From positions 1 through 64,000 of the forward strand of contig NZ_RJLN01000030.1 of NCBI RefSeq assembly GCF_003725545.1: a DNA stretch of 64,000 nucleotides. The letters run 5' to 3'. Numbering within the stretch: position 1 is the first letter of the stretch; the number at the start of each line of letters is the position of its first letter. The notes under the pieces are model-generated. The model searched no databases. It was not told the origin of the DNA and saw nothing but the letters and a program-made list of their open reading frames with translations. A program made the translations under genes and the position numbers. Positions 37,249-58,578 of this stretch are shown here, in pieces. The DNA comes from Micromonospora solifontis (GTDB lineage: Bacteria > Actinomycetota > Actinomycetes > Mycobacteriales > Micromonosporaceae).

Positions 37249-37312
37249 CTGCGGCTTGTCGGGCGGGCCGCGGTCCGCCGATCGTCCCCGTCGGGACGAC
37301 CGGCGGGCGACC

Positions 37313-39637: not shown

Positions 39638-39676
39638 GCTGTGCCTTTCATCTGGTTGTGCTCGTTGCGCTGCCGC

Positions 39677-40537: not shown

Positions 40538-40539
40538 GA

Positions 40540-41538
40540 TCAGTTCGCCCTCCGGGTGATGGCGCCCTCGATGTCCCGGCGCAGGATGAAGCGCTGGAAC
40601 AGCAGCGCCGCGACGAACGAGATGACGAAGAGGATGACGGCCACCGCGTTGCCGTAGCCCCACAGCCGGGCGAAGAACCCGTTGTCCACCATGTAGGTCG
40701 CCATGGTGCCCGATGCCCCGAGCGAGCGCACCGCGGGCACCGAGGTCACCCAGATCACGTCGAAGACCTGCAGCGAGCCGATCATCGACAGGAACGCCCA
40801 GATCCGGATGGTCGGGCCGAGCAGCGGGAGGGTGACGTGCCGCTGGGTCTGCCACCAGCTCGCGCCGTCGATGGCGGCGGCCTCGGTCAGCTCGTGCGGC
40901 ACGTTGGACAACCCGGCGAGCAGGAGGATGATGGCGAAGCCGACGTACTTCCAGGTGAGGACGAACAGCAGGGTCCAGATGACGACGTCCAGGTCCGCGA
41001 GCCAGGCCTGGACCAGGCCGCCGAGCCCCAGGGACTTCAGCAGCGCGTCGAAGGTGCCGTTCTCGACCAGGATCAGCTTCCACATGATGCCGACGGTGAC
41101 CTCGGCGAGCACGTAGGGCACGAACACCAGCAGGCGGAACACGGCGCGCCCGCGGAAGCGGCGGTTGAGCAGCAGGGCGATGCCAAGGGCGACGGGGCCC
41201 TGGATCAACAGCGACCCGAACACGATGATCGCGTTGTTGCGCAGCGCGTCGAGGAAGATCGGGTCCTGGAAGGCCAGGGTGTAGTTCCTCAGGCCGACGT
41301 AGTCGGTGGGCGGCCCGACGCCGCGCCAGCGATAGAGGCTGTAGTAGACCGCGAAGCCCATGGGCACCAGCACGAACATCACGTACACGACGATCGCCGG
41401 CGTGGTGAGCCCGACGATCTCGTACCACTTGCGGCGGGTCTCGGCCCGCCGGGAGGATGGGCGCCCGGCGGGCCGGTGACCCGCCGGCGGCGTCGAGACG
41501 CCGCCGGCGGGGAACCGGGTCTGGTCGGTGGAGGTCAC
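40540..41538 (-). CDS. bxlF: ABC transporter permease, BxlF type
   Basis: MalF-like membrane subunit. 332 residues: a cytoplasmic head rich in Pro/Arg followed by six membrane segments (IVGLTTPAIVVYVMFVLVPM first). The EAA loop is HELTEAAAIDGASWWQTQRH and then VTLPLLGPTIRIW. GTG 41538 overlaps the binding-protein stop as GTGA, so the two are translationally coupled. Forms the channel together with the BxlG-type protein. Confidence 0.92.
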   Translation of the reverse strand: MTSTDQTRFPAGGVSTPPAGHRPAGRPSSRRAETRRKWYEIVGLTTPAIVVYVMFVLVPMGFAVYYSLYRWRGVGPPTDYVGLRNYTLAFQDPIFLDALRNNAIIVFGSLLIQGPVALGIALLLNRRFRGRAVFRLLVFVPYVLAEVTVGIMWKLILVENGTFDALLKSLGLGGLVQAWLADLDVVIWTLLFVLTWKYVGFAIILLLAGLSNVPHELTEAAAIDGASWWQTQRHVTLPLLGPTIRIWAFLSMIGSLQVFDVIWVTSVPAVRSLGASGTMATYMVDNGFFARLWGYGNAVAVILFVISFVAALLFQRFILRRDIEGAITRRAN

Positions 41539-42845
41539 TTGCTCGCGGCTGCCTTCATCCGCTCGACGACCTGCTCGGGCGTGCCCTTGCCCGAGAAGAT
41601 GCCGACGATCCCGTCGTTCATCGCGGTGCCGATGGTGCTGCCGTAGGCGGTGTCCAGCCAGAGTTGCACGTAACTGGCCTGAGACGTGGCCTCCAGGATG
41701 GACTTCAGGGCCGGGTCCTTGATGCCGGCCTCCGCGCCCTTCGCCACGGGCAGGCCGGTGCCGGTCTCGGCGTAGCCCTTCTGCACCTCGGGGCTGGCGA
41801 TGTACTTGAGGAACTCGACGCACTCGGCCGGGGCGTTCTTGGCACAGGCGAACCCGTCACCGCCGCCGAGGGCGGCCTTGGGGTCACCGGCGGAACCGGA
41901 GATCGCCGGCACCGGGAACCAGCCGAGGAACTTGGCGAGCTTCGCCTTGTCCGTGGCGACGGTGTCCAGCGTGCCGCGGTTCCAGTCGCCCATCAGCTCC
42001 ATCGCGGCCTTGCCGTTGGCGAGCAGGCCGTTGGCGCTGGTCGGGTCGTTCTGGCCCGGCGTGGCGATGAAGTTGTTCTGGAACGGCTTGGTGTCGATGA
42101 AGGCCTTCAGGTCCTGGCCGGCCTTCACGAAGCACGGGTCGTCGAAGACCTTGTCGGTGGTCGCCTTCTTCAGGGTGTCGACCGAGCAGTCGCGCAGCGC
42201 GAAGTTGTACCACCAGTGCGCGGCGGGCCACTTGTCACCGGCGCCCACGGCGATCGGGATGACGTTGATGGCCTTGAGCTTGGTGACGGCGGCGTTGAGC
42301 TCTTCGAAGGTGGCCGGCGGCGCGGTGATGCCCGCCTGGGCGAACATGTCCTTGTTGTACCAGATGCCCTCGATGCCCATCCGGAACGGCAGGCCGTACT
42401 GCTTGCCGTCCACCTGCCAGATCTCGGCCGCGCTGCCGATGTTGGCGACCTCGGTCTTGACCTGGTCGGTGATGTCCTTGAGGTAGTCGGCCTCGACCTG
42501 ATCGCGCAGCTCGCCACCACCCCAGGTCATGAAGATGTCCGGCGGGTCGTTGCTCAGCAGCGCGGCGGGGATCCGGGTGCGCTGGAGCTGGTTGGTCTCG
42601 ATCGCCTCGATCTCGATCTTGACGGTCGGGTGGGCGGTGGAGAAGTCCTTGGCGACCTTCTCCCAGTAGGTCTTGCCGGGCCCGTCCTGGTTGGCGTTGT
42701 GCCACCAGGTGAGGGTCACCGGGTTCTTGTACAGCTCGCTCTGGGGGGAAGCCTCGTCGTCGCCGCCGCTGTTGCACCCAGCGACAACGAGAGCACTTGT
42801 CATAAGCAGTGCCAGGGCGGCACCTGCACGGCGCTTCGTCGCCAT
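41535..42845 (-). CDS. bxlE: sugar-binding lipoprotein, BxlE type
   Basis: Extracellular solute-binding protein presumed to bind xylobiose. 436 residues. The signal MATKRRAGAALALLMTSALV ends in the lipobox VAGC (Cys24). Mature features typical of MalE-class proteins: VTLTWWHNANQDGPGKTYWE, IPAALLSNDPPDIFMTWGGG and YGLPFRMGIEGIWYNKDMF, then a C-terminal lobe with GDWNRGTLD. First gene of bxlEFGA. A promoter (TTGACA at 42919-42914) and a LacI-type operator lie upstream, shared with the divergent regulator gene. Other small xylo-oligosaccharides or cellobiose remain possible ligands. Confidence 0.92.
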   Translation of the reverse strand: MATKRRAGAALALLMTSALVVAGCNSGGDDEASPQSELYKNPVTLTWWHNANQDGPGKTYWEKVAKDFSTAHPTVKIEIEAIETNQLQRTRIPAALLSNDPPDIFMTWGGGELRDQVEADYLKDITDQVKTEVANIGSAAEIWQVDGKQYGLPFRMGIEGIWYNKDMFAQAGITAPPATFEELNAAVTKLKAINVIPIAVGAGDKWPAAHWWYNFALRDCSVDTLKKATTDKVFDDPCFVKAGQDLKAFIDTKPFQNNFIATPGQNDPTSANGLLANGKAAMELMGDWNRGTLDTVATDKAKLAKFLGWFPVPAISGSAGDPKAALGGGDGFACAKNAPAECVEFLKYIASPEVQKGYAETGTGLPVAKGAEAGIKDPALKSILEATSQASYVQLWLDTAYGSTIGTAMNDGIVGIFSGKGTPEQVVERMKAAASK

Positions 42846-42891
42846 AGATTTCTCCTCGACTAGTCAGTCGCGGTACTCGGCCTGCGGGGGA

Positions 42892-42919
42892 GTTTTACAG
42901 CCACGTAACTTGGTGTCAA
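42892..42919 (-). promoter_or_regulatory. bxlE promoter
   Basis: On the minus strand TTGACA (42919-42914) and TAAAAC (42897-42892) are 16 bases apart, 47 bases before the bxlE-type start. The operator at 42927-42940 abuts the -35 side. Confidence 0.6.
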
Positions 42920-42926
42920 TCGGTAT

Positions 42927-42940
42927 CGATAACGTTTTCG
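42927..42940. promoter_or_regulatory. LacI-type operator between bxlE and bxlR
   Basis: CGATAACGTTTTCG is a palindrome with one mismatch and the central CG step typical of LacI-family sites. It lies between the divergent promoters of bxlE and the LacI gene at 42986, and differs from the CGAAAnTTTCG palindromes of the other xylan genes. Confidence 0.6.
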
Positions 42941-42972
42941 AATCGCTCGTGACGGGGGCCGCGCGGCGGCTC

Positions 42973-42978
42973 TATCAT
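42973..42978 (+). promoter_or_regulatory. -10 element of the bxlR-type gene
   Basis: TATCAT ends eight bases before GTG 42986, with a weak -35-like GTGACG at 42949-42954. Transcription would begin essentially at the start codon, so the message is probably leaderless. Confidence 0.45.
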
Positions 42979-42985
42979 CGTCTGC

Positions 42986-43990
42986 GTGGTGTTCCCGGAG
43001 CGCGTCAAGATGTCGGATGTGGCACGTACCGCCGGCGTCTCGGTCGCCACGGTATCGAAGGTAGTCAATGGGCGGTACGGCGTCGCCCAGGCGACCGTCG
43101 AGCGCGTCCAGCAGGTCATCCACGAGTTGGGCTACGAGGCGAGCCTGGGGGCGCAGAGCCTGCGCAGCCACCGCACGAACGTGCTGGGGATCCTGGTCGC
43201 CGAGTTCGAGCCGTTCTCGACCGAGCTGCTCAAGGGGGCGTCCCGGGAGGTGGCCGGCAGCGGATACCAGCTGCTGGCGTACTCCAGCGGCGACGGCGAG
43301 GGCGCCGCCATAGGGTGGGAACGGCGCTCGCTGGCCCGGCTGTCCGGCACCCTCATCGACGGCGCCGTGATCGTCACGCCGACCGTGGTCGAGACCAAGC
43401 ACGGCTTCCACGTCGTGGCGGTCGACCCCCACACCGGCCCGTCCGGCCTGCCCACCGTCGACTCGGACAACTTCGCCGGCGCCGTGCTGGCGACCAACTA
43501 CCTGCTGTCCCTCGGTCACCGGCGGATCGGGCACATCAGCGGACGCGCCGACCTGGAGTCGGCCCGGCTGCGCGAGGCCGGCTTCCGCAAGGCGATGGCC
43601 GACGCCGGTGTGCCGGTGGACGAGCGGCTCGTCCGCGTCGGCGGGTTCCGGGTCGAGAGCGCCGCCGGCACCGCCGCGGAACTGCTGGCACTCCCCGACC
43701 GGCCGACCGCGATCTTCGCCGGAAACGACCTCTCGGCGATCTCCACGATGGACGTCGCCCGCGGTATGGGCCTCACCGTGCCGGACGACCTGTCGGTGAT
43801 CGGCTTCGACAACGTCCCGGAGTCCGCGCTGGTCGACCCGCCGCTGACGACCATCAGGCAGCCGATCCAACGCATGGGCGCCGAGGCGCTGCGCCTGCTC
43901 ATCGACCTGATCGGCGGCGTCGAAGGCAACACGCACATCCGGCTCCCCACCGAGTTGGTCATCCGTTCGTCCTGTCGCCCCCATCGCTGA
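42986..43990 (+). CDS. bxlR: LacI-family repressor of the bxlEFGA operon
   Basis: 334 residues. The helix-turn-helix is VKMSDVARTAGVSVATVSKV with hinge VNGRYGVAQATVERV, followed by a periplasmic-binding-protein-like ligand domain (NVLGILVAEFEPFSTELLKG) and the C-terminal DDLSVIGFDNVPESALVDPP. GTG 42986 is preferred because the HTH lacks its first residues if ATG 43010 is used. It is divergent from bxlE with a LacI operator between them, as for BxlR in Streptomyces, and probably derepresses the operon when xylobiose is present. It converges with the second LacI gene, only six bases apart. Confidence 0.88.
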   Translation: MVFPERVKMSDVARTAGVSVATVSKVVNGRYGVAQATVERVQQVIHELGYEASLGAQSLRSHRTNVLGILVAEFEPFSTELLKGASREVAGSGYQLLAYSSGDGEGAAIGWERRSLARLSGTLIDGAVIVTPTVVETKHGFHVVAVDPHTGPSGLPTVDSDNFAGAVLATNYLLSLGHRRIGHISGRADLESARLREAGFRKAMADAGVPVDERLVRVGGFRVESAAGTAAELLALPDRPTAIFAGNDLSAISTMDVARGMGLTVPDDLSVIGFDNVPESALVDPPLTTIRQPIQRMGAEALRLLIDLIGGVEGNTHIRLPTELVIRSSCRPHR

Positions 43991-43996
43991 CCCGCC

Positions 43997-45055
43997 TCAA
44001 CCGGCCGGCGGCGCGGTCGGCGTCCCCGCGGCGTCCCGGGGCGGCCAGGGGGCGGCGCTGTCGCGCACGACGAGTTCGGTGGCGAGTTCCACCCGTGGGC
44101 TCTCGATCCGCTCGCCCTGAGCCAGGCGCAGGACCGTGCGGGCGGCGAGCATGCCCATCTCGGCCAGGGGTTGCCGGACGGTGGTCAGCGGCGGGGAGCA
44201 CCAGCGGACCTCCGGCAGGTCGTCGAAGCCGACGACGCTGACGTCGTCCGGCACCCGCAGACCGCGTCGCCGGACGGCCTCGTAGACGCCGAGGGCCATC
44301 TGGTCGCTGGAGGCGATGATGGCGGTGGCCGGGTCGGCCATGCCGAGCAGGTGGTTGCCGCCGGCGAACCCGGCCTCGTGATAGAAGTTGCCCTGGCAGA
44401 TCAGCCTGTCGTCGACGCCGAGGCCGGCGGCCTCCAGCGCGGCCCGGTAGCCGTCGAGGCGCGCCCGGCTGCACATCAGCTGCGGCGGCCCGGCGATGAA
44501 GCCGATCCGGCGGTGGCCGAGGCCGAGCAGGTACTCGGTGGCGCGCAGGCTGCCCACCCAGTTGGTCGCGCCGATCGTGGGCGCCTCCTGCGGCGGCACC
44601 CCGGCAGGGTCGACGATGACGACGGGGATGTTGAGGCGGCGCAGCTCGGCCTGCAGCGGCGGCTCCAGGGTGGAGGTCACGAAGATGACCCCTTCGGTGG
44701 ACCGCATGCGCATGTTGTGCAGCCACTGCCTGGCCGAGGAGCTGCGCCAGTGGATCGCGGACACCACGGTGCCGATGCCGGCCGCGTGCGCGACGTCCTC
44801 GACACCCCGGATGATCTCGACCGCCCAGGGGCTGTCCAGGTCGTTGAAGACCAGGTCGACCAGGCCCGAGCTGGCCCGCATGCTCGGCGGGCGGCGACGG
44901 TAACCGTGCCGGGTCAGCAGCTCCTCGACCCGTTCCCGGGTCTGGGGTGAGACGTCGGAGCGGCCGTTGATGACCCGCGAGACGGTCGGAACCGAAACGC
45001 CGGCCAGGCGGGCGATCGCCGCGATGGTGACTTTCCGGGAATTGTCCGAGGTCAC
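43997..45055 (-). CDS. LacI-family regulator of the xylan genes
   Basis: 352 residues. The helix-turn-helix is VTIAAIARLAGVSVPTVSRV with INGRSDVSPQTRERVEELL, then a ligand-binding core with VDLVFNDLDSPWAVEIIRGV and the C-terminal DDVSVVGFDDLPEVRWCSPP. Start GTG 45055 (VTSDNSRKVT), with AAAGGG six bases upstream. A minus-strand promoter lies at 45182-45210. It is divergent from the GH43 gene, whose upstream region holds CGGAA/TTCCG repeats, so it is the best candidate for the factor that binds the CGAAA-TTTCG-type palindromes found at the CE7, ABC, GH43 and GH10 genes (inference). Confidence 0.88.
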   Translation of the reverse strand: MTSDNSRKVTIAAIARLAGVSVPTVSRVINGRSDVSPQTRERVEELLTRHGYRRRPPSMRASSGLVDLVFNDLDSPWAVEIIRGVEDVAHAAGIGTVVSAIHWRSSSARQWLHNMRMRSTEGVIFVTSTLEPPLQAELRRLNIPVVIVDPAGVPPQEAPTIGATNWVGSLRATEYLLGLGHRRIGFIAGPPQLMCSRARLDGYRAALEAAGLGVDDRLICQGNFYHEAGFAGGNHLLGMADPATAIIASSDQMALGVYEAVRRRGLRVPDDVSVVGFDDLPEVRWCSPPLTTVRQPLAEMGMLAARTVLRLAQGERIESPRVELATELVVRDSAAPWPPRDAAGTPTAPPAG

Positions 45056-45181
45056 GGGGGCCCTTTCGACATCGCTGAGGCGCGCACCGGCAGGTTCCCC
45101 GGGCCGGCCGGCGGCGGATCCGCGAGCGCTGATGCCGGAATTTTCATCGAGGTGCCGACATGTTTCGACGTGCTGGCGGGT

Positions 45182-45210
45182 ACGTTACGACGCGCTCCCG
45201 CCAGGGTCAA
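45182..45210 (-). promoter_or_regulatory. promoter of the second LacI gene
   Basis: On the minus strand TTGACC (45210-45205) and TAACGT (45187-45182) are 17 bases apart. Transcription would start about 120 bases before GTG 45055; the leader contains CGGAATTTTC (45136-45145), resembling the xylan operator. Confidence 0.5.
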
Positions 45211-45246
45211 GGCTCTGTCGCCCGTCGCCGCGAGCCGTTACGGTGA

Positions 45247-45287
45247 GCGGAAATCCTGGAACTTCCGACGAAGAACTTCCGGAAACT
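45247..45287. promoter_or_regulatory. cluster of xylan-operator-like half-sites upstream of GH43
   Basis: Within 41 bases are CGGAAATCC, two GAACTTCCG copies 14 bases apart (45259-45267 and 45273-45281), and the palindrome ACTTCCGGAAACT (45275-45287). These share GGAA/TTCC arms with the palindromes at 47015 and 48382. The cluster ends 33 bases before the GH43 start. Confidence 0.5.
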
Positions 45288-45319
45288 CGGCGGAGGACCG
45301 ACCCCCCAAGGAGCCGTAC

Positions 45320-46945
45320 ATGTCGACGGAGATCGCAGACGTGGCCACGACCGCCCGGTCGATCCGCAACCCGGTTCTCACCGGGTTCCACCCGGATCCC
45401 TCGATCCTGCGCGTGGGTGACGACTACTACCTGGCCACCTCGACCTTCGAGTGGTATCCCGGGGTCCGCGTGCACCACTCGCGCGACCTCGTCCACTGGC
45501 GCGCGGTCGGCGGGATCATCACCGACCGCCGGCTGCTGGACCTGCGTGGCTGCGGCGACTCCAACGGGGTGTGGGCGCCCGACCTGACGTACCACGACGG
45601 GCTGTTCCACCTGGTCTACAGCGACGTCGCCAGCTTCGCCAGCGGCTACTGGGACCCGCAGAACTACCTGGTCACCGCCCCGGACATCAGCGGGCCGTGG
45701 TCCGATCCCGTGAAGCTGCACTCGCACGGCTTCGACGCCGCGCTGTTCCACGACACCGACGGCAGCACCTGGCTGCTGAGCATGAGCGCCGACTGGCGGC
45801 CGGGGCGGGACCGCTTCGGCGGCATCGAGATCCAGCGCTACGACCGCGAGCGGCGCCAGCTGGTCGGCGAGGCGCGGATCATCTTCCACGGCACCGCCGC
45901 CGGCCTGACCGAGGGGCCGCACCTGTACCGGCGGGACGGCTGGTACTGGCTGGTCACGGCGGAGGGGGGCACCAGCTGGGAGCACCAGGTCACCGTCGCC
46001 CGCTCCCGGCACCTGTTCGGCCCGTACCTGGCCGACCCGTCCGGCCCGCTGCTCACCTCCGCGGGCCGCCCCGACCTGCGCCTGCAGAAGGCCGGCCACG
46101 GCTGCCTGGTGCAGACCCAGCGCGGCGACTGGTACCTGGCCCACCTGGTGGCGCGCCCGTACTCGCCGCTGGGCAGATGCGTGCTCGGCCGGGAGACCGC
46201 GATCCAGCGGGTCGACTGGCCCGCCGGGCAGTGGCCACAGATCGCCGGCGGCGTGCCCGCCGACACCATCGCCGCGCCGGACCTGCCCGCACACCCCTGG
46301 CCGGACGAGCCGGCGACCGACCACTTCGACTCCCCGCGGCTGGCGGCCTGCTGGTCGACGCTGCGCCGCCCGGCCGGCCCGGAGTGGCTCGACCTCGAGG
46401 CCCGCCCGTCGCACCTGCGCATCCACGGGGGACAGTCGCCGGTCGGCAAGCAGACCCCCAGCCTGGTCGGGCGGCGGGTGGGCGCCGAGCGGTGCGCGCT
46501 GGAGACCGTGGTCGAGTTCGACCCCGTCGATCACCGGCAGCTGGCCGGGCTGACCGCGTACTACAACACCCTCAACTGGCACTACCTCTACCTGACCCGG
46601 GCCGACGACGGCCGGGCGGTGCTGGAGCTGCTCAGCTGCGACCAGGGGCGACGGACCGCCCACCCGGAGCTCACCGTCGACGTCGGCGACGCCGTCCGGG
46701 TCGGCCTGCGCGCGCGGTTCGACGGGCCGGTGGTGCGCTTCGGGTACGACCTCGGCGCCGGCTGGCGGGAGCTGCCGGTGGACCTGGACGCGACGATCCT
46801 CTCCGACGAGCACGCCGCGCTCGTCGTCGACGGCGAACCGGCGGCCTGGGGCTTCACCGGCGCCTTCCTCGGCCTGTGGGTGCAGGACCTCGGCGGCGAC
46901 GGCGTCTACGCCGACTTCGACGAGGCCACCTACCGGGAGGACTGA
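45320..46945 (+). CDS. xynB: beta-xylosidase/arabinofuranosidase, GH43
   Basis: 541 residues. The five-bladed propeller opens NPVLTGFHPDPSILRVGDDY with the catalytic base Asp26 and TSTFEWYPGV; the pKa-modulating Asp lies in SHGFDAALFHDTDG and the acid Glu in GLTEGPHLYRRDGWYWL, as in the XynB subgroup. The C-terminal half (from about residue 330) is the beta-sandwich domain (FDSPRLAACWSTLRRPAGPE) of two-domain GH43 xylosidases. No signal peptide, so cytoplasmic. ATG 45320 has AAGGAG seven bases upstream. Divergent from the second LacI gene. Arabinofuranosidase activity often accompanies this fold. Confidence 0.92.
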   Translation: MSTEIADVATTARSIRNPVLTGFHPDPSILRVGDDYYLATSTFEWYPGVRVHHSRDLVHWRAVGGIITDRRLLDLRGCGDSNGVWAPDLTYHDGLFHLVYSDVASFASGYWDPQNYLVTAPDISGPWSDPVKLHSHGFDAALFHDTDGSTWLLSMSADWRPGRDRFGGIEIQRYDRERRQLVGEARIIFHGTAAGLTEGPHLYRRDGWYWLVTAEGGTSWEHQVTVARSRHLFGPYLADPSGPLLTSAGRPDLRLQKAGHGCLVQTQRGDWYLAHLVARPYSPLGRCVLGRETAIQRVDWPAGQWPQIAGGVPADTIAAPDLPAHPWPDEPATDHFDSPRLAACWSTLRRPAGPEWLDLEARPSHLRIHGGQSPVGKQTPSLVGRRVGAERCALETVVEFDPVDHRQLAGLTAYYNTLNWHYLYLTRADDGRAVLELLSCDQGRRTAHPELTVDVGDAVRVGLRARFDGPVVRFGYDLGAGWRELPVDLDATILSDEHAALVVDGEPAAWGFTGAFLGLWVQDLGGDGVYADFDEATYRED

Positions 46946-46960
46946 CCGGCTCGCCGACGG

Positions 46961-46989
46961 TTGACGGGCGACATCGACCTCCGTAATCT
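46961..46989 (+). promoter_or_regulatory. promoter of the first GH10 xylanase gene
   Basis: TTGACG at 46961-46966 and TAATCT at 46984-46989, 17 bases apart. Transcription would start near 46996, with the operator CGGAAGTTTCGG 20 to 30 bases further on. Confidence 0.65.
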
Positions 46990-47014
46990 CTCGGGCTACT
47001 TGCGGAAATACCTT

Positions 47015-47026
47015 CGGAAGTTTCGG
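47015..47026. promoter_or_regulatory. xylan operator CGGAAGTTTCGG
   Basis: Imperfect palindrome 26 bases downstream of the -10 element of the GH10 gene, the same geometry as the site at 27061. A partial copy, GCGGAAATACCTTCGG, lies just upstream (47002-47017). Confidence 0.6.
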
Positions 47027-47130
47027 GGGCCGCGGGCCGGGTGGACACCCGGCCCACCCCGCGTCCACGGCCTCCTGACCACCACCGCCGTCGACCCCCG
47101 GGCCGACCCGCTTCCCGGAAGGAATCCCCC

Positions 47131-48324
47131 ATGAAACTGAGACGCTGGATAGCCGCCGGCGCGGTCGCCGTCGCGACCCTCGCCGCCCTGAACGTCGCCC
47201 CCGCCAGCGCGGGCCGGCCGTACGATCCCACCAGCCAGAGCCTGCGCGACCTGGCCATGCGGCACGGCCTCTACGTGGGCACCGCCGTCGACATGGCCGC
47301 CCTGAACGACGCCACCGACCCCCGCTACCGCGAGCTGGCCGGGTCCGAGTTCTCCACCGTCACCGCCGAGAACGCGATGAAGTGGGAGAGCCTGGAGCCC
47401 ACCCGGGGCAGCTACAACTGGGGGCCGGCCGACGAGCTGGTCGACTTCGCCCGGCAGCACCACCAGCGCGTACGCGGGCACGTGCTGGTCTGGCACAACC
47501 AGCTGCCGGCCTGGCTGACCGCCGGGGTGGCCGACGGCTCGATCAGCAACACCGAGCTGCGCCAGATCCTGCGCGACCACATCACCGCCGTGGTCACCCA
47601 CTTCAAGGGCCGGATCTGGCAGTGGGACGTGGTCAACGAGGCGGTCAGCGACCCCTGGGACACCCCGTCCACCCTGCACTACAAGGGCTTCTGGGCCGAG
47701 CACCTGGGGTCGGGCTACGTCGCCGACGCGTTCCGCTGGGCGCGTGCCGCCGACCCGAAGGCGCTGCTGTTCTACAACGACTACAACATCGAGGCCTTCG
47801 GCTCCGGTGACCCGGCGAACGACAAGACCCAGTTCGTCTACGAGATGGCCCGGGACCTGCGGGCCAAGGGCGTGCCGATCGACGGGATCGGCAGCCAGGG
47901 CCACCTGGGCACGCAGTACGGCAACTACGACACCTTCCAGGTGGCCGCGGCGCTCAAGAAGTTCGCGGGCCTGGGGCTGGCGACCGCGTTCACCGAGGTC
48001 GACGTTCGCAGCCAGCTCACCGAGGGCGTCCAGGCCGGCGACTCCGCCGAGATCAACCCGAGGCTGCAGGCGTCGGCGGCGAACTTCAGCGTGCTGCTGC
48101 GGGCCTGCCTGTCCTCGCCGCACTGCCTGTCGTTCACGCTCTGGGGCTTCGACGACAAGCACTCCTGGGTGCCGGGCTGGTTCAAGGACCCGCCCGAGGG
48201 ACTGGCCACCGTGTACGACGAGAACTACCAGCCCAAGCGGGCGTACCAGGAGCTGAAGGCAGACCTGATCTACTCCGGACCGCCCTTCGTGCTGCCGCGC
48301 GTGCCGCAGCAGCCGCGCCGGTAG
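47131..48324 (+). CDS. secreted endo-1,4-beta-xylanase, GH10 (no CBM)
   Basis: Cuts the xylan backbone outside the cell. 397 residues with a Sec signal (MKLRRWIAAGAVAVATLAAL, cleavage near ASA at residue 27). The GH10 barrel shows GSEFSTVTAENAMKWESLEP, VRGHVLVWHNQLPAWL, acid/base Glu170 in DVVNEAVSDPW and nucleophile Glu289 in TAFTEVDVRSQ, plus SFTLWGFDDKHSWVPGWF. No carbohydrate-binding module, unlike the next gene. ATG 47131 has GGAAGGAA upstream. A 40-bp palindrome follows. The insert GLATAFTEVD and the C-terminal basic tail are unremarkable. Confidence 0.94.
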   Translation: MKLRRWIAAGAVAVATLAALNVAPASAGRPYDPTSQSLRDLAMRHGLYVGTAVDMAALNDATDPRYRELAGSEFSTVTAENAMKWESLEPTRGSYNWGPADELVDFARQHHQRVRGHVLVWHNQLPAWLTAGVADGSISNTELRQILRDHITAVVTHFKGRIWQWDVVNEAVSDPWDTPSTLHYKGFWAEHLGSGYVADAFRWARAADPKALLFYNDYNIEAFGSGDPANDKTQFVYEMARDLRAKGVPIDGIGSQGHLGTQYGNYDTFQVAAALKKFAGLGLATAFTEVDVRSQLTEGVQAGDSAEINPRLQASAANFSVLLRACLSSPHCLSFTLWGFDDKHSWVPGWFKDPPEGLATVYDENYQPKRAYQELKADLIYSGPPFVLPRVPQQPRR

Positions 48325-48337
48325 GCGCGCCCACCCG

Positions 48338-48377
48338 ATGACGGCGGGGCCGGTCCGCGGACCGGCCCCGCCGTCAT
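48338..48377 (+). terminator. 40-bp perfect palindrome, terminator of the first GH10 gene
   Basis: ATGACGGCGGGGCCGGTCCG (48338-48357) is followed directly by its exact reverse complement (48358-48377), 14 bases after the xylanase stop. As RNA it folds to a very stable hairpin; there is no T-run. Only five bases separate it from the operator of the next xylanase gene. Confidence 0.75.
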
Positions 48378-48381
48378 GCTC

Positions 48382-48395
48382 CGGGAAATTTCCGG
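48382..48395. promoter_or_regulatory. xylan operator CGGGAAATTTCCGG
   Basis: Contains the perfect palindrome GGAAATTTCC (48384-48393), placed seven bases before the -35 element of the second GH10 gene. Confidence 0.6.
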
Positions 48396-48401
48396 AAGTT
48401 G

Positions 48402-48431
48402 TTGACGTTGCCGCAGGGGTGTACGGACAAT
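48402..48431 (+). promoter_or_regulatory. promoter of the second GH10 xylanase gene
   Basis: TTGACG at 48402-48407 and GACAAT at 48426-48431, 18 bases apart. The leader to ATG 48596 is about 155 bases and shows no obvious riboregulator. Confidence 0.5.
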
Positions 48432-48433
48432 GA

Positions 48434-50029
<1,596 letters not shown>

Positions 50030-50641: not shown

Positions 50642-51640
50642 CTACTCCGTGCCGTCCGCCGGCAGTCGCTCCGGCAGCCCGAGCCGCGGGAACTGGTCGT
50701 GGTGGAAGATGACGATCTCGGTGATCGCCCCGCCGGTGACACGCAGGACGTCGATCGTCAGCGGCAGGTACGCGCCCTCGCGCTCCCGCCAGTGGTAGAA
50801 GGCGACGGCGGGCTGCCGGTTCACGGCGGTGGGGACGGCGCGCAGACCCGTCATGCCGTCGAAGCCGTCGTTGATCCAGTCGTTCACCACGGCGTCGCGG
50901 CCGATGTGCAGGCCCGGCGTGGGCGGCATCGAGCACCGGACGTCGTCCCGCAGCATCGAGGCGAGCGTGGGGATGTCGGTGGCCACGCTGGCGTCGGTGA
51001 AGCGGCGCACCAGCTCGCGCGTTCCGGCGTCCTCCTCGCCGCCGGTCCAGTCCTGCCGCTCGGCGGGCAGGTGCTCCCGCATGCCGGCGCGGGCCCGCTG
51101 CAGCGCGCTGTTCACGGAGTTGACCGAGTCCCCGAGCAGCTCCGCGACGTCCTTCGCCGGCCAGCCGAGCACGTCGCGCAGGATCAGCACGGCCCGCGGG
51201 CGCGGCGCGAGGTGCTGGACCGCGACCAGGTACGCCAGCTCGATCGTCTCCCGCGCGACGGCGATGCTCTCCGGCTCGTCCGCGTCGCCCGCGGGCAGCT
51301 CGTCGAGCAGCCGGTCCGGGTAGGGCTGCAGCCACCGCACCTCGCCGCCCGTCGCGGGCTCCGGGCGGCGCCTGGCGAGCAGGTCCAGGCAGGCGTTGGT
51401 GGCGATCCGGTACAACCACGCCCGGAACGTCGACCGCCCCGCGAAGGTCTCCCGTCGCCGCCAGGCGCGCAGGAACGTCTCCTGCACGGTGTCCTCGGCG
51501 TCCTCGAACGACCCCAGCATCCGGTAGCAGTGCACGTGCAGCTCCCGCCGGTGCCGCTCCGCCAGGCCCGAGAACGCCGACTCGTCGACCTCACCCAGAC
51601 CGCTCACGCCCAGCTCCGCCAGCCGCGTGTCCGCACTCAT
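50642..51640 (-). CDS. ECF sigma factor with C-terminal SnoaL-like domain
   Basis: 332 residues. Sigma region 2 is FSGLAERHRRELHVHCYRML then GSFEDAEDTVQETFLRAWRR, and region 4 is LAPRPRAVLILRDVLGWPAK with DVAELLGDSVNSVNSALQRA. The last about 125 residues (ELVRRFTDASVATDIPTLAS, then AVAFYHWREREGAYLPLTID) form an NTF2/SnoaL-like domain, found in large ECF factors that lack a classical anti-sigma factor and are controlled by this tail. ATG 51640 has GGAAGGA seven bases upstream. The target promoters are unknown. Confidence 0.9.
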   Translation of the reverse strand: MSADTRLAELGVSGLGEVDESAFSGLAERHRRELHVHCYRMLGSFEDAEDTVQETFLRAWRRRETFAGRSTFRAWLYRIATNACLDLLARRRPEPATGGEVRWLQPYPDRLLDELPAGDADEPESIAVARETIELAYLVAVQHLAPRPRAVLILRDVLGWPAKDVAELLGDSVNSVNSALQRARAGMREHLPAERQDWTGGEEDAGTRELVRRFTDASVATDIPTLASMLRDDVRCSMPPTPGLHIGRDAVVNDWINDGFDGMTGLRAVPTAVNRQPAVAFYHWREREGAYLPLTIDVLRVTGGAITEIVIFHHDQFPRLGLPERLPADGTE

Positions 51641-51704: not shown

Positions 51705-52850
51705 TCACCGGGTGCGCGGGACCGCCTCCGGTGACCAGGTGACGTCGTACCGGGGATCGGCGACTCCCTCGGCGAACGCCGCCGCGGCGGCGGGCGTGCT
51801 GACGATGCGCCAGTCCCGTTCCTTGTCCACCTCGAACCAGATCAGCCCGATGATGTCCGGGTAGCCGGGCAGCGTCCGGAAGGCCTGCCGGATCCAGTCC
51901 GCCTTGCGCCCGCTGACCTCGGCGGCGCCGGTCTCGGTGACCACCAGCGGTTTGTGGCTGAAGGCGCGGATCTCGGTGACGGTCCGCTTGAAGATCGCGT
52001 CGAAGGAGTAGTACTGCGAGAAGGCGCCGCTGCCGTAGTAGCCGGTCATGCCGATCCAGTCCACGTAGTCGTCGCCGGGGTAGAGCGGGGCGAGCGCGGG
52101 GGTCGAATCGCTCCACCTGACGTTGGCGCTCCACACCCAGACGACGTTGGTCACCCCGGCGTCGCGGAACACGTCGTGCACGTGCCGCCAGGCCTTCACG
52201 TAGTCACCGGGTCGATTGCCGTTGGCCGCCCCGCACCACGGGTACCAGTCGCCGTTCATCTCGTGGGCGAACCGGATGGCCACCGGGTAGCCCAGCGATC
52301 TGATCCCCGCGGCCCAGGACAGCAGGTGGTCGTCGAAGTCGCCGCGGGCGATCCGGGACAGCCGGTAGCGGGGCTGGTTGGACCGAATCTTGTCGATCTC
52401 ACGGTTGGCCAGCTTCCGCTTGCGGGCCGCCTCGTCGACCCGTTGGTCCCACGGCTCCCAGCCCAGCATGGGGAGCATGCCGCGGTCGCTGATCCGGTCG
52501 AAGAGGGTCCGGTCGAACGGGGAGTCGGCCCAGCCGACGCTGAAGAGCATGACCTGCGGCTGGCGGCGGGCCGCCGCCGTGAAGGTGTCCACCGCGGTGA
52601 AGTCGTACGGTCCCTTGTCGGTCATCACCCCGATGAACGCCTTGCCGGCGGGCGGGAAGACGGGCGGCGCCGGCCGGGGTGGCTCGCTCGTCGCGGCCTG
52701 CGTCACCGCCTCCGGCCCGGCCTGCGCGACCTGGTTGGACGGCGCCTCCTGCCGGCGGCCGGCCACTGTGGCCGGCGCCACCGCGAAGGCGTACGTCAGC
52801 AGCAGCACGCCGATCAGCGCCAGCGCCACGCGCGGCAGGGTCAGCCTCAC
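51705..52850 (-). CDS. GH26 glycoside hydrolase, membrane-anchored
   Basis: 381 residues. A single N-terminal hydrophobic segment (LTLPRVALALIGVLLLTYAF) anchors or exports it, followed by a Pro/Ala linker. The GH26 barrel has FIGVMTDKGPYDF at its start, acid/base Glu in VAIRFAHEMNGDWYPWCG and nucleophile Glu in KPLVVTETGAAEVSG. GH26 enzymes cut beta-mannans or mixed beta-glucans. GTG 52850 overlaps the stop of the GT2 gene as GTGA, so the hydrolase is made with the polymer synthase and is more likely to edit or release that exopolysaccharide than to digest food polymers (inference). GTG 52853 is also possible. Confidence 0.88.
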   Translation of the reverse strand: MRLTLPRVALALIGVLLLTYAFAVAPATVAGRRQEAPSNQVAQAGPEAVTQAATSEPPRPAPPVFPPAGKAFIGVMTDKGPYDFTAVDTFTAAARRQPQVMLFSVGWADSPFDRTLFDRISDRGMLPMLGWEPWDQRVDEAARKRKLANREIDKIRSNQPRYRLSRIARGDFDDHLLSWAAGIRSLGYPVAIRFAHEMNGDWYPWCGAANGNRPGDYVKAWRHVHDVFRDAGVTNVVWVWSANVRWSDSTPALAPLYPGDDYVDWIGMTGYYGSGAFSQYYSFDAIFKRTVTEIRAFSHKPLVVTETGAAEVSGRKADWIRQAFRTLPGYPDIIGLIWFEVDKERDWRIVSTPAAAAAFAEGVADPRYDVTWSPEAVPRTR

Positions 52851-54745
52851 CACCGCGCACCTCCGTCCGCGGCCACCCGCGCCGCCAGGGCCGGTCGTTC
52901 CCCGGCCCGCGCCCGGGCGACCAGGGCGGCGGCCTCGGCGCGTTCCTCGCGCCTGGCCCGCAGGTTCGTCCCGAGCGCGATCAGTGGCGGGCCGAGACCG
53001 GTCAGCAGGGTCAGCACCGGCCAGACCCGTAGCAGGGGCGCGTCGGCGCCCAGGACGAAGCTGGCGCCGAGCAGCCCGGCGGCGGCGGCCGCCCAGCACA
53101 GGTGCAACCGGAACGTGCCGAGCGACTCGGTGGTGCGCAGCTTCCCCTTGGCCGTCACCACGAAGCCCAGTTTCCGGCGCAGCAGCGCACCGAACCCGGC
53201 GGCCACGTAGACGGGACCGGCGAACAGGGCCAGCGCCATGCCGACCATCCCGATCTCCTCCCGCTCGTGGGGGGCGATGTTGAACCGGCGCAGCCAGAGC
53301 CAGAGCGCGAACCAGGTGCAGAACGTCGCGCCCCACAGCAGGGACCACACGGTGCCGTCGAGCTGCGCGGCGCTCACGCCGGTGAGCAGGTACATCGCCG
53401 TGGCGAGGTTGCCCAGCAGCAGGCTGACCGCCACGCTGGGGTAGTAGAACTGCAGCAGCCGGTACTGCCAGCGCCGCCGGGTCGGCAGCTCGCGGGGGGC
53501 GCGCAGCTCGGGACGGACGATGATCTCGCTGATCCCGGCGGCCCAGCGTTTCTGCTGGTTGAAGTAGTCCGCCCACGAGGTCGGGCCCTCGCCGATGGCG
53601 ACCACGTCGGGGGTGTAGACGCCCTTCCACCGGTTGCCGGTGCCCGGGTTGACGGCGGCGTGGACGCGGATGCTGGTCAGGTGGTCCTCGATGATCGAGT
53701 CCTGGTAGCCGCCGATGGTCTGCCACGCCGCCGGCCGGTAGAGGTGCCCGGTGCCGGTGAGCAGCGGCGCGTCCAGCCCGTTCCCGCCGCGCGCGATGAG
53801 GCCGTTGTAGAGGTACTGCTGCACGGAGGCGCCGTGCGCGACGAAGTTCTGGTGCATGTTGCCGTACACCTGGGGGGTCACCACGAAGGCGACGTCCGGG
53901 TCGCGGAAGTAGCCCAGCGTGCGTTCGAGGAAGTTCGGCAGCGGCACGTGGTCCGGGTCGACGTTGGCGACCACGTCGTAGTGGCGTTCGTGCTCGGCCC
54001 GCCAGGCGTTGTGGTTGCCGGACTTGGTCCGCGCCCGGAACTCCCCGGCGGGCTGGTTGTACTCCGGGCGGCCCTTGCGGCTGAAGTGGCGTACACCCAG
54101 CCGCGCGGCCATCTCCCGCACCGCCGGGTCGTCGCCCTCGTCGAGGATCCAGACGTCGACCTGACCGCAGTACACGATCTGCCGCAGCCGGCGCAGGGTC
54201 CGTTCCACCACGTCGAGCGGCTCCTTGCTGGGCACGATCGTGGTGAGCAGGGCCACCCGCAGGCCGACCGGCGGGTCGACCGGGACCGGGTCGCGGGCGT
54301 GGAAGGCGAACATCCAGACGACCACGTTCTGCGCGAGGCGGATCAGCTCGACCCCCACGACGACGCAGAAGCCGAGCCGGGCGGCGACGGTCTGCCAGCC
54401 GCCGAGGGCGCTCCCGCCGACGCCGGGTACGTGCTGGGGAAGCAGCAGCCAGCCGACGAACAGCAGCCCGGCCGCGCTGTTGACCAGGACGAGCAGGGTG
54501 AGCACCAGCCGGGCCGCGGGCGAGGCGACGTGCCGGAACTCGACCGCCGCGTCCGCGCGCGCGGGCGCGGTCAGCGGGCCGGCGGTCGCGCCGCAGCCGG
54601 CGTACGTGAGGCGGGCCCGGACGTTGCGCCGGCGGCGCTCCACCTCCCGCCCGGGCGGCGGCGGGGCCGGCGGGACCGGCGGAGCGCTGTCGCCCGAGGT
54701 CCCGGGCGTGGCGCGGGACAGGCGTGTATCGGCGGCGACGGCCAC
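52847..54745 (-). CDS. cellulose-synthase-like glycosyltransferase, GT2
   Basis: 632 residues. Membrane-embedded processive glycosyltransferase: about 80 residues of cytoplasmic head, two membrane segments, the catalytic GT2 domain, and about five C-terminal membrane segments. Catalytic motifs are visible as VDVWILDEGDDP, the DxD in ANVDPDHVPLP, the IIEDH (TED-type) acid, and QQKRW (QxxRW). That set marks processive beta-glycan synthases. It lacks a PilZ domain. Coupled to GH26 by a GTGA overlap and preceded by a polytopic glycosyltransferase-like gene 70 bases away. The product polymer is unknown (beta-glucan or beta-mannan). Confidence 0.92.
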   Translation of the reverse strand: MAVAADTRLSRATPGTSGDSAPPVPPAPPPPGREVERRRRNVRARLTYAGCGATAGPLTAPARADAAVEFRHVASPAARLVLTLLVLVNSAAGLLFVGWLLLPQHVPGVGGSALGGWQTVAARLGFCVVVGVELIRLAQNVVVWMFAFHARDPVPVDPPVGLRVALLTTIVPSKEPLDVVERTLRRLRQIVYCGQVDVWILDEGDDPAVREMAARLGVRHFSRKGRPEYNQPAGEFRARTKSGNHNAWRAEHERHYDVVANVDPDHVPLPNFLERTLGYFRDPDVAFVVTPQVYGNMHQNFVAHGASVQQYLYNGLIARGGNGLDAPLLTGTGHLYRPAAWQTIGGYQDSIIEDHLTSIRVHAAVNPGTGNRWKGVYTPDVVAIGEGPTSWADYFNQQKRWAAGISEIIVRPELRAPRELPTRRRWQYRLLQFYYPSVAVSLLLGNLATAMYLLTGVSAAQLDGTVWSLLWGATFCTWFALWLWLRRFNIAPHEREEIGMVGMALALFAGPVYVAAGFGALLRRKLGFVVTAKGKLRTTESLGTFRLHLCWAAAAAGLLGASFVLGADAPLLRVWPVLTLLTGLGPPLIALGTNLRARREERAEAAALVARARAGERPALAARVAADGGARW

Positions 54746-54815
54746 GTTTCCCCCATGGGTCCGAGTCTTGCTGAGCCTGGTCAGGACGATCTACAGAAAG
54801 GTCATGCGGTGACGG

Positions 54816-56306
54816 TCAGCGCGCCGTGCGGTCGTCCACCAGCAGGGCCAGCGTGAACCCGGTCGGCCGCCAGACCTGCGCCACGCGGTAGCCGACCCGG
54901 AGCATCCGCCCGGTCGGGCCGTCGGTGGGCGGCAGCGGGTCGGCCCGTTCCCCCGGGCGGACCACCCAGAGTCGCCGGCAGTGGGGGACGTCGACGCACC
55001 CGGTGGCGGTCGGCGGCACGGTCGCGGCGGTGACGTCCGCCGGCCGCCGGTCGGCGCGGAGGTAGCGCGCCAGGACGCTGCGCACGTCCGGGCCGCTGCC
55101 GGCGTCGTAGACGAGGCGGTCGCCGGGTTCCCAGCGGTCCTCGACGATCCGGGCGAGCTGGCGGGTGGCGGGTCCGTGCCCGTCGGGCGCCCGCACGGCG
55201 GCCTGCGCCGGGGCACCGATCAGGGCGATCACCGCCAGCACGCCGACCGACCAGCGGGTGCGTACCCGGGACAGCGCGACCGCGGCGAGGGTCGCCCAGG
55301 CCGGCAGCGTGACCAGCAGCGCCTGCGGGGACCAGAGCGGCGTCGCCTGCGCGACGAGCAGCAGGACGACCGGCGGCACCGCCGCCCCGGCGGTGAAGAC
55401 GGCCGCGGGGTACCGCAGCGGCAGGCTGAACAGGGCCAGCACGAACAGCACCCCGGCCAGCGCGGCGACGCCGAACAGCGCCGCCGGCGTCGCGGCGAGC
55501 GCGGTCAGGTCGGGCCGGCCGGCGGGGGCGATCCGGCCGCCGTCGCGCAGGACGAGCCAGAGCAGCGTGGCGGCGGGCAGCGCGCCCACGGACGCGGCCG
55601 CCAGCCACCGGGCGGCCGAGGGGCGGCGGAAGGCGTACGCGGCCCAGCCGTGGCCGGCGAGGAGCGGCAGCGCCGCGACGTGGCAGAGGCCCAGCACGGC
55701 CACGGCGCCGGCGTACGCCGCGAGGCGCCACCGGGTCGGGCGGTCCAGGGTCGGCAGCAGCAGCCAGGTGGCGAGCGCCGCGCCGAGCACGGCCAGCGCG
55801 TACGGCTGGGCCTCCTGCGCGTAGCGGGTCGAGGCCGGCAGGAGCGCGAAGATCAGGCCGGCCAGCAGGCCGGTGCCGGGCGTGAACGCCCGGGCCGCCG
55901 CCGCGCCGACCAGTGCCGCGGCGGCGATCATGGCCAGCACGGACGGTACGCGCAGCGCGAGGTCCGAACTGCCGAACGCCTCGGCCCACGCCCGCATCAG
56001 CAGGTGGTACGGGGTGCCGGTGCCGCCGGCCGAGCCGAGCGCCGACCAGTTCTCCCGCCAGGACGCGGTGGCGGCGCGCCAGGTCGCCAGTTCCTCGGTC
56101 CCGAGGCCGGGCACCCCGGCCCGGACGGCGCCGAGGACGCCCATCACCAGGGCCGGCACCAGCCACGCGGCGATCCATGGGGTGCCGGCCACCGGGCGGC
56201 AGCGCTCGCCTCGGGGTTCGGCGGGGAGGTCCTCGTCCCAGGGATCCTCGGGGCCGCCCCCCACCGGCCCGAGCCGGGGCAGGACCATGGTGTCCGCGTC
56301 GTTCAT
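54816..56306 (-). CDS. polytopic glycosyltransferase-like membrane protein (GT39/PMT-type)
   Basis: 496 residues with about ten to twelve hydrophobic segments. The first long loop has RAGVPGLGTEELATWRAATA followed by TGTPYHLLMRAWAEAFGSSD, the DE/E-containing loop and helix pattern of the dolichol-phosphate-mannose transferase superfamily (GT39/GT83/ArnT type). LALRVPSVLAMI and LLPASTRYAQEAQPYAL continue that pattern. The C-terminal 150 residues are extracytoplasmic. ATG 56306; the frame is open to 56457. On the same strand just upstream of the GT2-GH26 pair, so perhaps part of one polysaccharide unit. The acceptor is unknown. Confidence 0.75.
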   Translation of the reverse strand: MNDADTMVLPRLGPVGGGPEDPWDEDLPAEPRGERCRPVAGTPWIAAWLVPALVMGVLGAVRAGVPGLGTEELATWRAATASWRENWSALGSAGGTGTPYHLLMRAWAEAFGSSDLALRVPSVLAMIAAAALVGAAAARAFTPGTGLLAGLIFALLPASTRYAQEAQPYALAVLGAALATWLLLPTLDRPTRWRLAAYAGAVAVLGLCHVAALPLLAGHGWAAYAFRRPSAARWLAAASVGALPAATLLWLVLRDGGRIAPAGRPDLTALAATPAALFGVAALAGVLFVLALFSLPLRYPAAVFTAGAAVPPVVLLLVAQATPLWSPQALLVTLPAWATLAAVALSRVRTRWSVGVLAVIALIGAPAQAAVRAPDGHGPATRQLARIVEDRWEPGDRLVYDAGSGPDVRSVLARYLRADRRPADVTAATVPPTATGCVDVPHCRRLWVVRPGERADPLPPTDGPTGRMLRVGYRVAQVWRPTGFTLALLVDDRTAR

Positions 56307-57363: not shown

Positions 57364-58578
57364 GTGACGGCAACGGTGAACGGCCGGCCACAGTGGCAGG
57401 TCAGGTGGGCACGACGCGAGAACGACCGGCGGCAGCGGGCGTACGAGGCCGCGCTCGGCAGCTGGCTCCGGCGCGAGGACCAGCTGATCCGGCTGCGGAT
57501 CGAGGCCGCCGGATTCCTGGGGTGCACCCAGCCCCGCACCGGCCTACCGGTGGCGCTCGCCGACGACGAGGTGGTCTACCGCGTGCTGCCGGCCGCCGAA
57601 CTGGTCGAGGCGGAAGCACGGCACCTGCGCGGGCTGCCCGCGCCCGCGCTGACCCTCGCCACCGGGGCGGTCGACCCGACGACCCACCCGCTGCCGGCCG
57701 GCCTGCGGCTGGTCGACACCGGGATGGCGGTCGTGACGGACCGGCGGGTCGCCTTCGCCGGGCGGGCCGGGCGGCGCGAGTGGACCCACACCGAGGTACG
57801 GGGGCCGGCCCACCACCCGGAGGTCCCGATCACGCTCCTGCCCACCGTGGACGGCCGCCGGCCGGCCGGGCTGCGGGTGCCGGCCGCCGCGGCGGTGAAC
57901 TTCCGCTTTTACCTCACCCTCGCCTTCGCCACCGCCACCGGCGCGCGGGCGGCCATCGTCCCTCAGGTCGACGCCCTGCTCGCGACCCACCGCGCGGCCC
58001 GGCCGACCGCGCCCTCCCCGGTGCCGCCCGAGGCGGCGCCCGCTCCCCTGCTGCGCCCCGAACGGCTGGCCGCCGCGGGCGCCGTCGCCGTCGCGTTGAC
58101 CATCGGCGCGCTGGCCGCCGGCACGGTGAACGCCCCGGCGGGAAGGCCGTACCGGGCGGACCCGGGACCGAACGGGGCCGCCGCGAGCCGGGACGGCCGG
58201 CTCGTGCTCGACGGCGGGTTCCCGGGCACGCCCGCCGGCAGCCCCACGGGCGGCGCGGTCCCGTCGCCGACCAGCACGCCGGGGTCCCGACCCCCGGCCG
58301 GTGTCGCCGACGCGGACGGCCCGGCCCGGCGGGAGACAGGGGCGGCGATCCGGTCGGCCGCGCCGGCCGCAGCGGTCTCCGAGCCGGTACGGAGCGCCGG
58401 TGCCCGGCCGTCCGCCGTCACGCCGGCGACCACGCCCCCGGCGGCCACCACACCGCCACCGGCCGCCACGCCCAGCCCCGGCGGCCCGGCGCCGTCGACC
58501 GGTCCGACGGCGGGCCTGCTCTGCCAGCAACCCCTTCAGCTGCCGCTGGTCGGATCGCTCCTGTGCCCGGGCTCGTGA
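57364..58578 (+). CDS. hypothetical protein with one membrane segment
   Basis: 404 residues of unrecognised family. Residues 1-215 are mostly soluble: an Arg-rich amphipathic helix (ARRENDRRQRAYEAALGSWL) then strands including RLVDTGMAVVTDRRVAFAGR, a PH-like pattern seen in proteins with a membrane-binding module. One membrane segment lies at about 240-258 (LAAAGAVAVALTIGALAAGT). The rest is a low-complexity Pro/Ala/Thr/Ser tail, presumably outside, ending in CQQPLQLPLVGSLLCPGS with two cysteines. GTG 57364 has no clear ribosome site and may be leaderless. Function not identifiable. Confidence 0.6.
   Translation: MTATVNGRPQWQVRWARRENDRRQRAYEAALGSWLRREDQLIRLRIEAAGFLGCTQPRTGLPVALADDEVVYRVLPAAELVEAEARHLRGLPAPALTLATGAVDPTTHPLPAGLRLVDTGMAVVTDRRVAFAGRAGRREWTHTEVRGPAHHPEVPITLLPTVDGRRPAGLRVPAAAAVNFRFYLTLAFATATGARAAIVPQVDALLATHRAARPTAPSPVPPEAAPAPLLRPERLAAAGAVAVALTIGALAAGTVNAPAGRPYRADPGPNGAAASRDGRLVLDGGFPGTPAGSPTGGAVPSPTSTPGSRPPAGVADADGPARRETGAAIRSAAPAAAVSEPVRSAGARPSAVTPATTPPAATTPPPAATPSPGGPAPSTGPTAGLLCQQPLQLPLVGSLLCPGS

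Follow-up and report, generated by a model that had tools for sequence, protein, structure and literature searches.

Why should the gene for a polysaccharide-degrading enzyme begin inside the gene for a polysaccharide synthase, and what would the two proteins make together? The question is raised by a locus of Micromonospora solifontis within the first 64,000 nucleotides of contig NZ_RJLN01000030.1 (the window), where a glycosyltransferase gene of family GT2 overlaps a glycoside hydrolase gene of family GH26, downstream of a gene for a GT39-like membrane protein. A preliminary description took all three genes as one exopolysaccharide unit. Our analysis suggests a smaller one, namely a dedicated pair of a CslA-type GT2 synthase and an anchored, lichenase-type GH26 that would act on the emerging beta-glucan, with the GT39-like protein outside the core. 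We regard this reading as probable.

A synthase gene and a hydrolase gene kept together

The three open reading frames, all on the minus strand, were recovered at the places given earlier, and so were the overlap of the GH26 start with the GT2 stop and the GT-C-like gene upstream (Table 1). The overlap is true under both candidate GTG starts of the GH26 gene, and 70 bases separate the GT39-like gene from the GT2 gene. The genome holds one GH26 match at E ≤ 0.001 and one GT2 of the CslA-like kind at E ≤ 1e-20. A scan for promoters and terminators found nothing, and a plasmid search with the GT2 as query gave no match. A sigma factor gene downstream (50642-51640) was considered as a further member and dropped; a relative was present in one of 24 genus loci (L038), where it lies upstream of the cassette.

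Table 1. Features of the locus, numbered by position in the window
Feature	Position	Strand	Remarks
GH26 gene	51705..52853	-	382 amino acids; GTG start (alternative GTG 52850); N-terminal transmembrane anchor, proline-rich linker, GH26 catalytic domain
GH26 catalytic domain (residues 70-365)	51759..52646	-	E198 (52260-52262) and E307 (51933-51935) align with two catalytic glutamates
Conserved GH26 membrane anchor (residues 3-28)	52770..52847	-	R-L-T-x-P-R ... Y-x-F-x-x-A-P
GT2 stop / GH26 start overlap	52847..52853	-	TGA 52847-52849; GTG 52851-52853 (start at 52853, 7-nucleotide overlap) or 52848-52850 (start at 52850, 4-nucleotide GTGA overlap)
GT2 gene, predicted processive-type polysaccharide synthase of the CslA sister clade	52847..54745	-	632 amino acids; GTG start; assigned from Pfam, NCBIfam, BcsA structures and tree
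GT2 gating-loop motif FVVTAK (residues 528-533)	53147..53164	-	fits FxVTxK as defined in PMC11022532
GT2 core motifs	53543..54142	-	D202 54140-54142; DPD 263-265 53951-53959; E353-D354 of IED 53684-53689; QQKRW 397-401 53543-53557
GT39-like GT-C membrane protein gene	54816..56306	-	496 amino acids; PMT_2 match and AlphaFold2 fold; apparent Micromonosporaceae accessory gene of the cassette
GT-C acidic DE motif site of the GT39-like protein (residues 71-72)	56091..56096	-	here EE, a conservative change

Among 151 Micromonospora genomes, the GT2 and the GH26 were found in the identical set of 41, and in 40 of these the genes are adjacent on one contig; G539 alone carries them on different contigs. 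In this comparison the GT2 was represented by a 261-residue piece at least 92% identical to ours and the GH26 by matches at E ≤ 1e-100, and the two genome lists were matched by eye. The coupling of a GH26 to a processive-type GT2, as described earlier, thus extends beyond the one genome, and it is also visible at the junction: the GT2 stop overlaps the GH26 start in 42 of 51 named loci, compared with overlaps in 116 of the 585 remaining pairs of same-strand neighbours there, counts that depend on the simple in-house gene caller from which the gene starts were taken.

A wider view was obtained from an even sample of 394 genomes at the level of the class, in which adjacency was read from coordinates. 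The GT2 had a match in 59 of these genomes, and all eight with a piece at least 74% identical had an adjoining GH26; in the other 51, no GH26 was found beside the GT2 at E ≤ 1e-15. Around 20 of the GT2 genes in this sample, the neighbouring stretch held a GH26 in 4 cases, a GlxA in 13 and neither in 3. Our scan of named loci, the best 80 of 412 relatives and hence leaning to close ones, found a GH26 within 1 kb of the GT2 in 60, a GlxA in 5 and neither in 15, some of which have short flanks. When the GT2 was at least 58% identical to that of the window, 48 of 50 loci were paired with GH26; both misses stop at a contig edge, and in one of them (L101) the cut-off gene opens with the GH26 anchor described below. 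Several named loci share genomes with one another and with the unnamed genus loci.

These results confirm that GT2 and GH26 form a real, widespread, kept-together unit across many soil actinobacteria. In close and middle relatives the two genes stay together; the GT39-like gene is with them in only some of the loci.

The synthase and its missing partners

Our analysis indicated that the GT2, judged by its sequence, is a sister of Streptomyces-type CslA with a different partner. It matches Pfam Glyco_trans_2_3 (E 5.9e-15), the solved BcsA structures (E 3e-18) and, far under the cut-off, partial cellulose synthase models of NCBIfam. The core residues D202, D263, D265, E353, D354, Q397, Q398, R400 and W401 are invariant in all 13 aligned GT2s, and the motif set is that of an enzyme predicted to be processive. 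GlxA-paired homologues are 43-48% identical to the window GT2. The preliminary description had set the locus apart from CslA/GlxA systems; this holds for the partner and fails for the synthase, which belongs beside CslA.

In the GT2 tree, which was built by a quick method with approximate likelihood-ratio (SH-aLRT) support only, contains long branches and leaves out 13 near-duplicate or short named loci by hand, one partner switch separates GH26-paired from GlxA-paired enzymes when partner-bearing rows alone are considered. The number of partner changes rises to 11 once 17 partnerless rows are counted. The nearest row to the window GT2 is that of Micromonospora yasonensis (91% identity over 579 columns). 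Nine alignment columns consistently split the two groups, among them residue 352, directly before the catalytic ED, which is isoleucine in 49 of 52 GH26-paired enzymes including ours and threonine (TED) in all eight GlxA-paired ones. The contrast of TED with GlxA and IED with GH26 offers a natural experiment on product and partner choice in GT2 enzymes. Residue 352 itself does not fix the product, because the mixed-linkage synthase RiGT2 has TED (PMC10374906) and the CSLC glucan synthases have VED where others have TED (PMC9201394); IED as a sign of mixed linkage was dropped on the same grounds. On visual inspection, the GT2s of L057 and L058 seemed to carry a tail resembling the MshEN-type domain that binds cyclic di-guanosine monophosphate, but Pfam gave it no support and it was also dropped.

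The absence of a PilZ, BcsB-like or GlxA-like gene had also been noted before, and our searches agree with it. Pfam scans of 17 distinct window proteins, which represent part of the window genes, showed none of these domains; for BcsB, these 17 proteins were the whole of the search, with no genome-wide one, and the GT2 itself had no Pfam match to PilZ. No GlxA or CslZ relative was found in the window at E ≤ 1e-3, CslZ being sought in the window and not in the rest of the genome, and a search of the genome, which is 93% complete, gave no GlxA relative at E ≤ 1e-15. The loci labelled as GH26-paired contained no GlxA or CslZ relative. Within the genus, GlxA matched 4 of 151 genomes, strongly in three (G001, G007 and G561), which are the same three that carry a CslA-type GT2. 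With 41 and 3 of 151 genomes, a joint count of zero compares with less than one expected by chance, and mutual exclusion of the two systems was rejected as a claim; G246, of another family, carries both a GH26-paired and a GlxA-type system (L153 and L158).

Comparison with known systems places the pair close to CslA. It shares with the Streptomyces CslA-GlxA-CslZ system the GT2 family, the D, DxD, ED and QxxRW core motifs and the FxVTxK gating loop. Streptomyces cslA is translationally coupled to glxA, with a glycanase in the locus (PMC11022532), as GT2 here overlaps GH26. In contrast to that system, a membrane-anchored GH26 replaces the radical copper oxidase GlxA, IED replaces TED, and a GH6 CslZ is absent from the window. 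The bcsABZ and clostridial ccs loci follow a similar plan of synthase, second partner and hydrolase (PMC11022532); unlike them, our locus shows no PilZ and no BcsB-like domain in the scanned proteins, and its hydrolase is of another family. RiGT2 of Romboutsia ilealis and BgsA of Sinorhizobium are likewise bacterial GT2s tied to beta-glucans (PMC10374906), but RiGT2 has a PilZ domain besides its TED, and GH26 is not mentioned in the main text of that paper.

The literature, as far as the accessible parts of open-licence full texts go, yielded no description of a CslA-type synthase with a coupled GH26. The nearest case there is WpsE, a GH26 of the wps-1 exopolysaccharide cluster of Actinoplanes missouriensis, a member of the same bacterial family (PMC13390465). 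That cluster differs in its proposed Wzx/Wzy pathway and in its GT2, WpsA, which groups with galactofuranosyltransferases; no CslA-type synthase is named, and the word CslA does not appear (PMC13390465). The unit described here looks like an apparently undescribed sister of the hyphal-tip cellulose machine of Streptomyces. What is known of envelope glycans in filamentous actinobacteria comes mainly from the CslA and MatAB systems of Streptomyces; the GT2-GH26 pair is kept in many genera, in one genome beside a GlxA-type system, and offers a two-gene target with a directly testable product.

The hydrolase, its anchor and the likely product

On profile and fold comparison, the GH26 sits in the lichenase branch typified by CtLic26A of Clostridium thermocellum rather than with the mannanases. 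It matches PF02156 (Glyco_hydro_26) with 65.6 bits (cut-off 20.2). E198 and E307 are invariant in 18 of 18 aligned GH26s and align with the catalytic glutamates of CtLic26A; their roles are assigned from the general biochemistry of GH26 enzymes. Searches with the sequence (phmmer, 1e-40 for CtLic26A versus 2e-11) and with the family profile (E 8e-66 versus 2e-16 for the best mannanase) agree with the fold search. In the latter, an AlphaFold2 model of the GH26 (mean predicted local distance difference test score, pLDDT, 85.5) found CtLic26A as the best solved match (Z 33.6; root-mean-square deviation 1.9 over 267 residues), ahead of a GH26 xylanase (Z 26.0) and of mannanases (at most 24.4). CtLic26A is part of a secreted plant-degrading enzyme, whereas the window GH26 is predicted to be membrane-anchored and is linked to a synthase. 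Because the enzyme groups with this lichenase, mannan becomes less likely as the polymer and beta-glucan more likely. Our best guess from these comparisons is a beta-glucan, perhaps of mixed linkage. The earlier proposal of a beta-mannan or a mixed-linkage glucan is thus retained in its second half, and its first choice is disfavored.

The GH26 opens with a conserved hydrophobic segment. Among 14 hand-chosen representatives from different genera or clades, Y21, F23 and P27 are present in all, T5 and P7 in 13 and R8 in 11, and the anchor core has a mean identity of 43%, compared with 20% for the linker and 54% for the catalytic domain. Among GH26s encoded directly 3' of the GT2, the pattern Y-x-F-x-x-[AG]-P is present in 45 of the 51 from named loci and in 20 of the 24 from genus loci, the two genome sets overlapping. 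A stricter form of it, sought in all six frames of 2.6 Mb made up of the window and loci picked for GT2 or GH26 rather than whole genomes, occurred at 57 distinct places, of which 56 adjoin a GH26 and one lies at the contig end of L101. The first form of the pattern matched 89 of 126 GH26 copies near a GT2; many of the other 37 are tandem paralogues with variants. None of 11 GH26s classed as having no close GT2 carried it, these being the ones among 24 in which the catalytic motif was found, with L065, which has a distant GT2, counted among them. Since a cleaved signal peptide is not expected to keep such a pattern, we infer that the segment anchors the enzyme in the membrane in contact with the synthase; its conservation suggests docking on the GT2.

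The following sequence of events may be proposed. The GT2 would polymerize a nucleotide sugar in the cytoplasm and extrude the chain through its own membrane channel, while the GH26, tethered in the same membrane by its anchor, probably contacts the synthase. Outside, the lichenase-type domain would work on the emerging chain in trimming, release or quality control. The GH26 could then fill the place of both GlxA and the GH6 enzyme CslZ of the CslA system, partner and hydrolase perhaps being one protein. The product would most likely be a beta-glucan, either extracellular or associated with the wall, and might contain mixed 1,3/1,4 links.

Several observations weigh against a dedicated pair of this kind. 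Below 58% GT2 identity, 30 named loci divide into 12 with GH26, 13 with no partner and 5 with GlxA, and the 12 include L129, a weak upstream match of 27.5% identity. The GH26 is divergently transcribed in several Geodermatophilaceae. One of the 52 GH26-paired GT2s has threonine at residue 352, and TED occurs in RiGT2, as stated above. The anchor motif was defined on the same sequences that it describes and is missing, near variants included, from 6 of the 51 GH26s of named loci and 4 of the 24 of genus loci; in L055 and L100, good GT39 and GT2 genes stand beside a GH26 with a hydrophobic start that lacks the motif. Our enzyme has a single close relative of solved structure, CtLic26A, and the identity to it is about 33%.

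A stronger form of the proposal assumes a second, so far unrecognized synthase complex of actinobacteria and makes the GH26, a member of a degradative family, an obligatory membrane subunit of the CslA-type synthase, docking through its anchor as GlxA or BcsB do in other systems, with a glucan other than cellulose as the product, perhaps of mixed linkage, and with the GT39-like protein of Micromonospora turning non-catalytic. The pair raises the question of a hydrolase as a structural part of a synthase. We keep this version as a doubtful possibility, the more so as the anchor control consists of 11 GH26s and L055 and L100 lack the motif.

A role of the GH26 in dispersal, in which it would have no share in synthesis and would dissolve the polymer at a late stage to free spores or turn over the matrix, seems to us rather unlikely. 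Actinoplanes uses two glycoside hydrolases to dissolve its sporangium matrix, and species with GimA/GimB usually carry two to four copies of them (PMC12691653). The GH26 is similarly present in three copies in 11 of the 41 genus genomes and in two copies in 3, the remaining 27 having one; in G046 the second copy belongs to a second, diverged cassette (L055). The frequent stop/start overlap and the conserved membrane anchor fit a co-made partner better.

We consider it unlikely that the product is plain cellulose, with the GH26 as no more than a substitute for CslZ, the GH6 endoglucanase. CslA, the nearest studied synthase, makes cellulose in vitro with GlxA (PMC11022532), and the VED of CSLC is close to the IED found here (PMC9201394). 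In opposition to this, the presence of both systems in G246 suggests different products, and the GH26 groups with a lichenase. A beta-mannan made by the GT2 and cut by a mannanase, the option that the preliminary description had put first, is improbable; GH26 enzymes are primarily mannanases (PMC13390465), but the profile and fold comparisons place ours well away from them, and in a published GH26 tree the lichenases branch separately from the mannanases (PMC6556568). That the GH26 is a plant-biomass enzyme lying beside the GT2 by accident, as the xylan-use region next door (30.8-50.0 kb) might suggest, is very improbable, since in the genus it occurs, at E ≤ 1e-100, only in the 41 GT2-bearing genomes, is adjacent in 40 of them and has the anchor motif in most paired copies, and a GH10 relative is present in the stretch around the pair in only 4 of 24 genus loci (L043-L046).

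Upstream genes and related loci

The GT39-like protein is, on its distribution, an accessory of some Micromonosporaceae outside the core. Its gene precedes the GT2 gene, with the same orientation, in 24 of 80 named loci, all of this family (Micromonospora, Winogradskya, Virgisporangium, Hamadaea and one further member), and other genes occupy the place in some other families; the three-gene unit proposed earlier is not upheld. In Bailinhaonella a GT39 relative has the opposite orientation, and none was found in the stretches around the GT2 of Dactylosporangium and Planosporangium, which are also Micromonosporaceae. The protein matches PMT_2 with 28.5 bits, just above the cut-off of 26.1, and its AlphaFold2 model (pLDDT 77.8) resembles Pmt4 (Z 28.9) and ArnT (Z 26.1), pointing to a GT-C fold. 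Residue 71, in the first outer loop at what we take to be the functional DE motif of GT-C enzymes, is E in 16, A in 8, G in 5, deleted in 4 and D in 1 of 34 Micromonospora orthologues, L042 and L119 being set aside as incomplete. The DE motif is present in all eight outgroup or second-type GT39 sequences, and the C-terminal domain is absent from 13 of the 34 orthologues. Its patchy distribution and changed DE motif led us to drop the gene from the core. In two genomes, at L034 (7258-8652) and L051 (5663-7102), the cassette contains, 3' of a GH26, a further GT39-like gene whose DE motif is intact, beside the changed first one.

Other genes take the upstream position in other taxa. In Streptomyces and Frankiaceae (L152-L155, L104-L106, L108, L109 and L116), the gene immediately upstream of the pair encodes a Ser/Thr kinase with a pyrroloquinoline quinone (PQQ) propeller; L155 and L105 are probably the same genome. 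Counted over the 80 named loci, this kinase is upstream in 6; in L107 and L118 the place is taken by a gene of about the same size that missed the filter. The link is suggestive because CslA needs a phosphorylation site in order to function (PMC13432765). A DUF2510 protein is encoded upstream in some loci from Kitasatospora and relatives.

Elsewhere in the window, the region 30778-50029 appears to serve the use of plant xylan, with GH39, GH42, GH67, GH3, GH43 and two GH10 genes identified by Pfam, and ABC-transporter and LacI-like genes recognized by eye. A respiratory nitrate reductase cluster, narGHJI, was recognized by eye at 3325-10068. The 400-residue protein encoded at 57376-58578 had no match in Pfam or NCBIfam.

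Among more distant loci, L065 (6504-11277) has a BcsA-like GT2, 28% identical to ours, that overlaps a GH26 of its own and lies 3' of an acyltransferase-like gene (seen by eye); to judge from this locus, GT2 and GH26 may have become paired on more than one occasion. L066 (3876-8421) is another locus of GT2 and glycanase, combining a distant GT2 with an epimerase-like gene (seen by eye) and a two-domain Glyco_hydro_cc protein. On a Dehalococcoidia (Chloroflexota) contig (L143), two calls resembling GT2 and several resembling GH26 stand together. A tailed phage from mangrove soil carries a GH26 relative, annotated as an endoglucanase and 33% identical (MK557849.1, 9047-9940).

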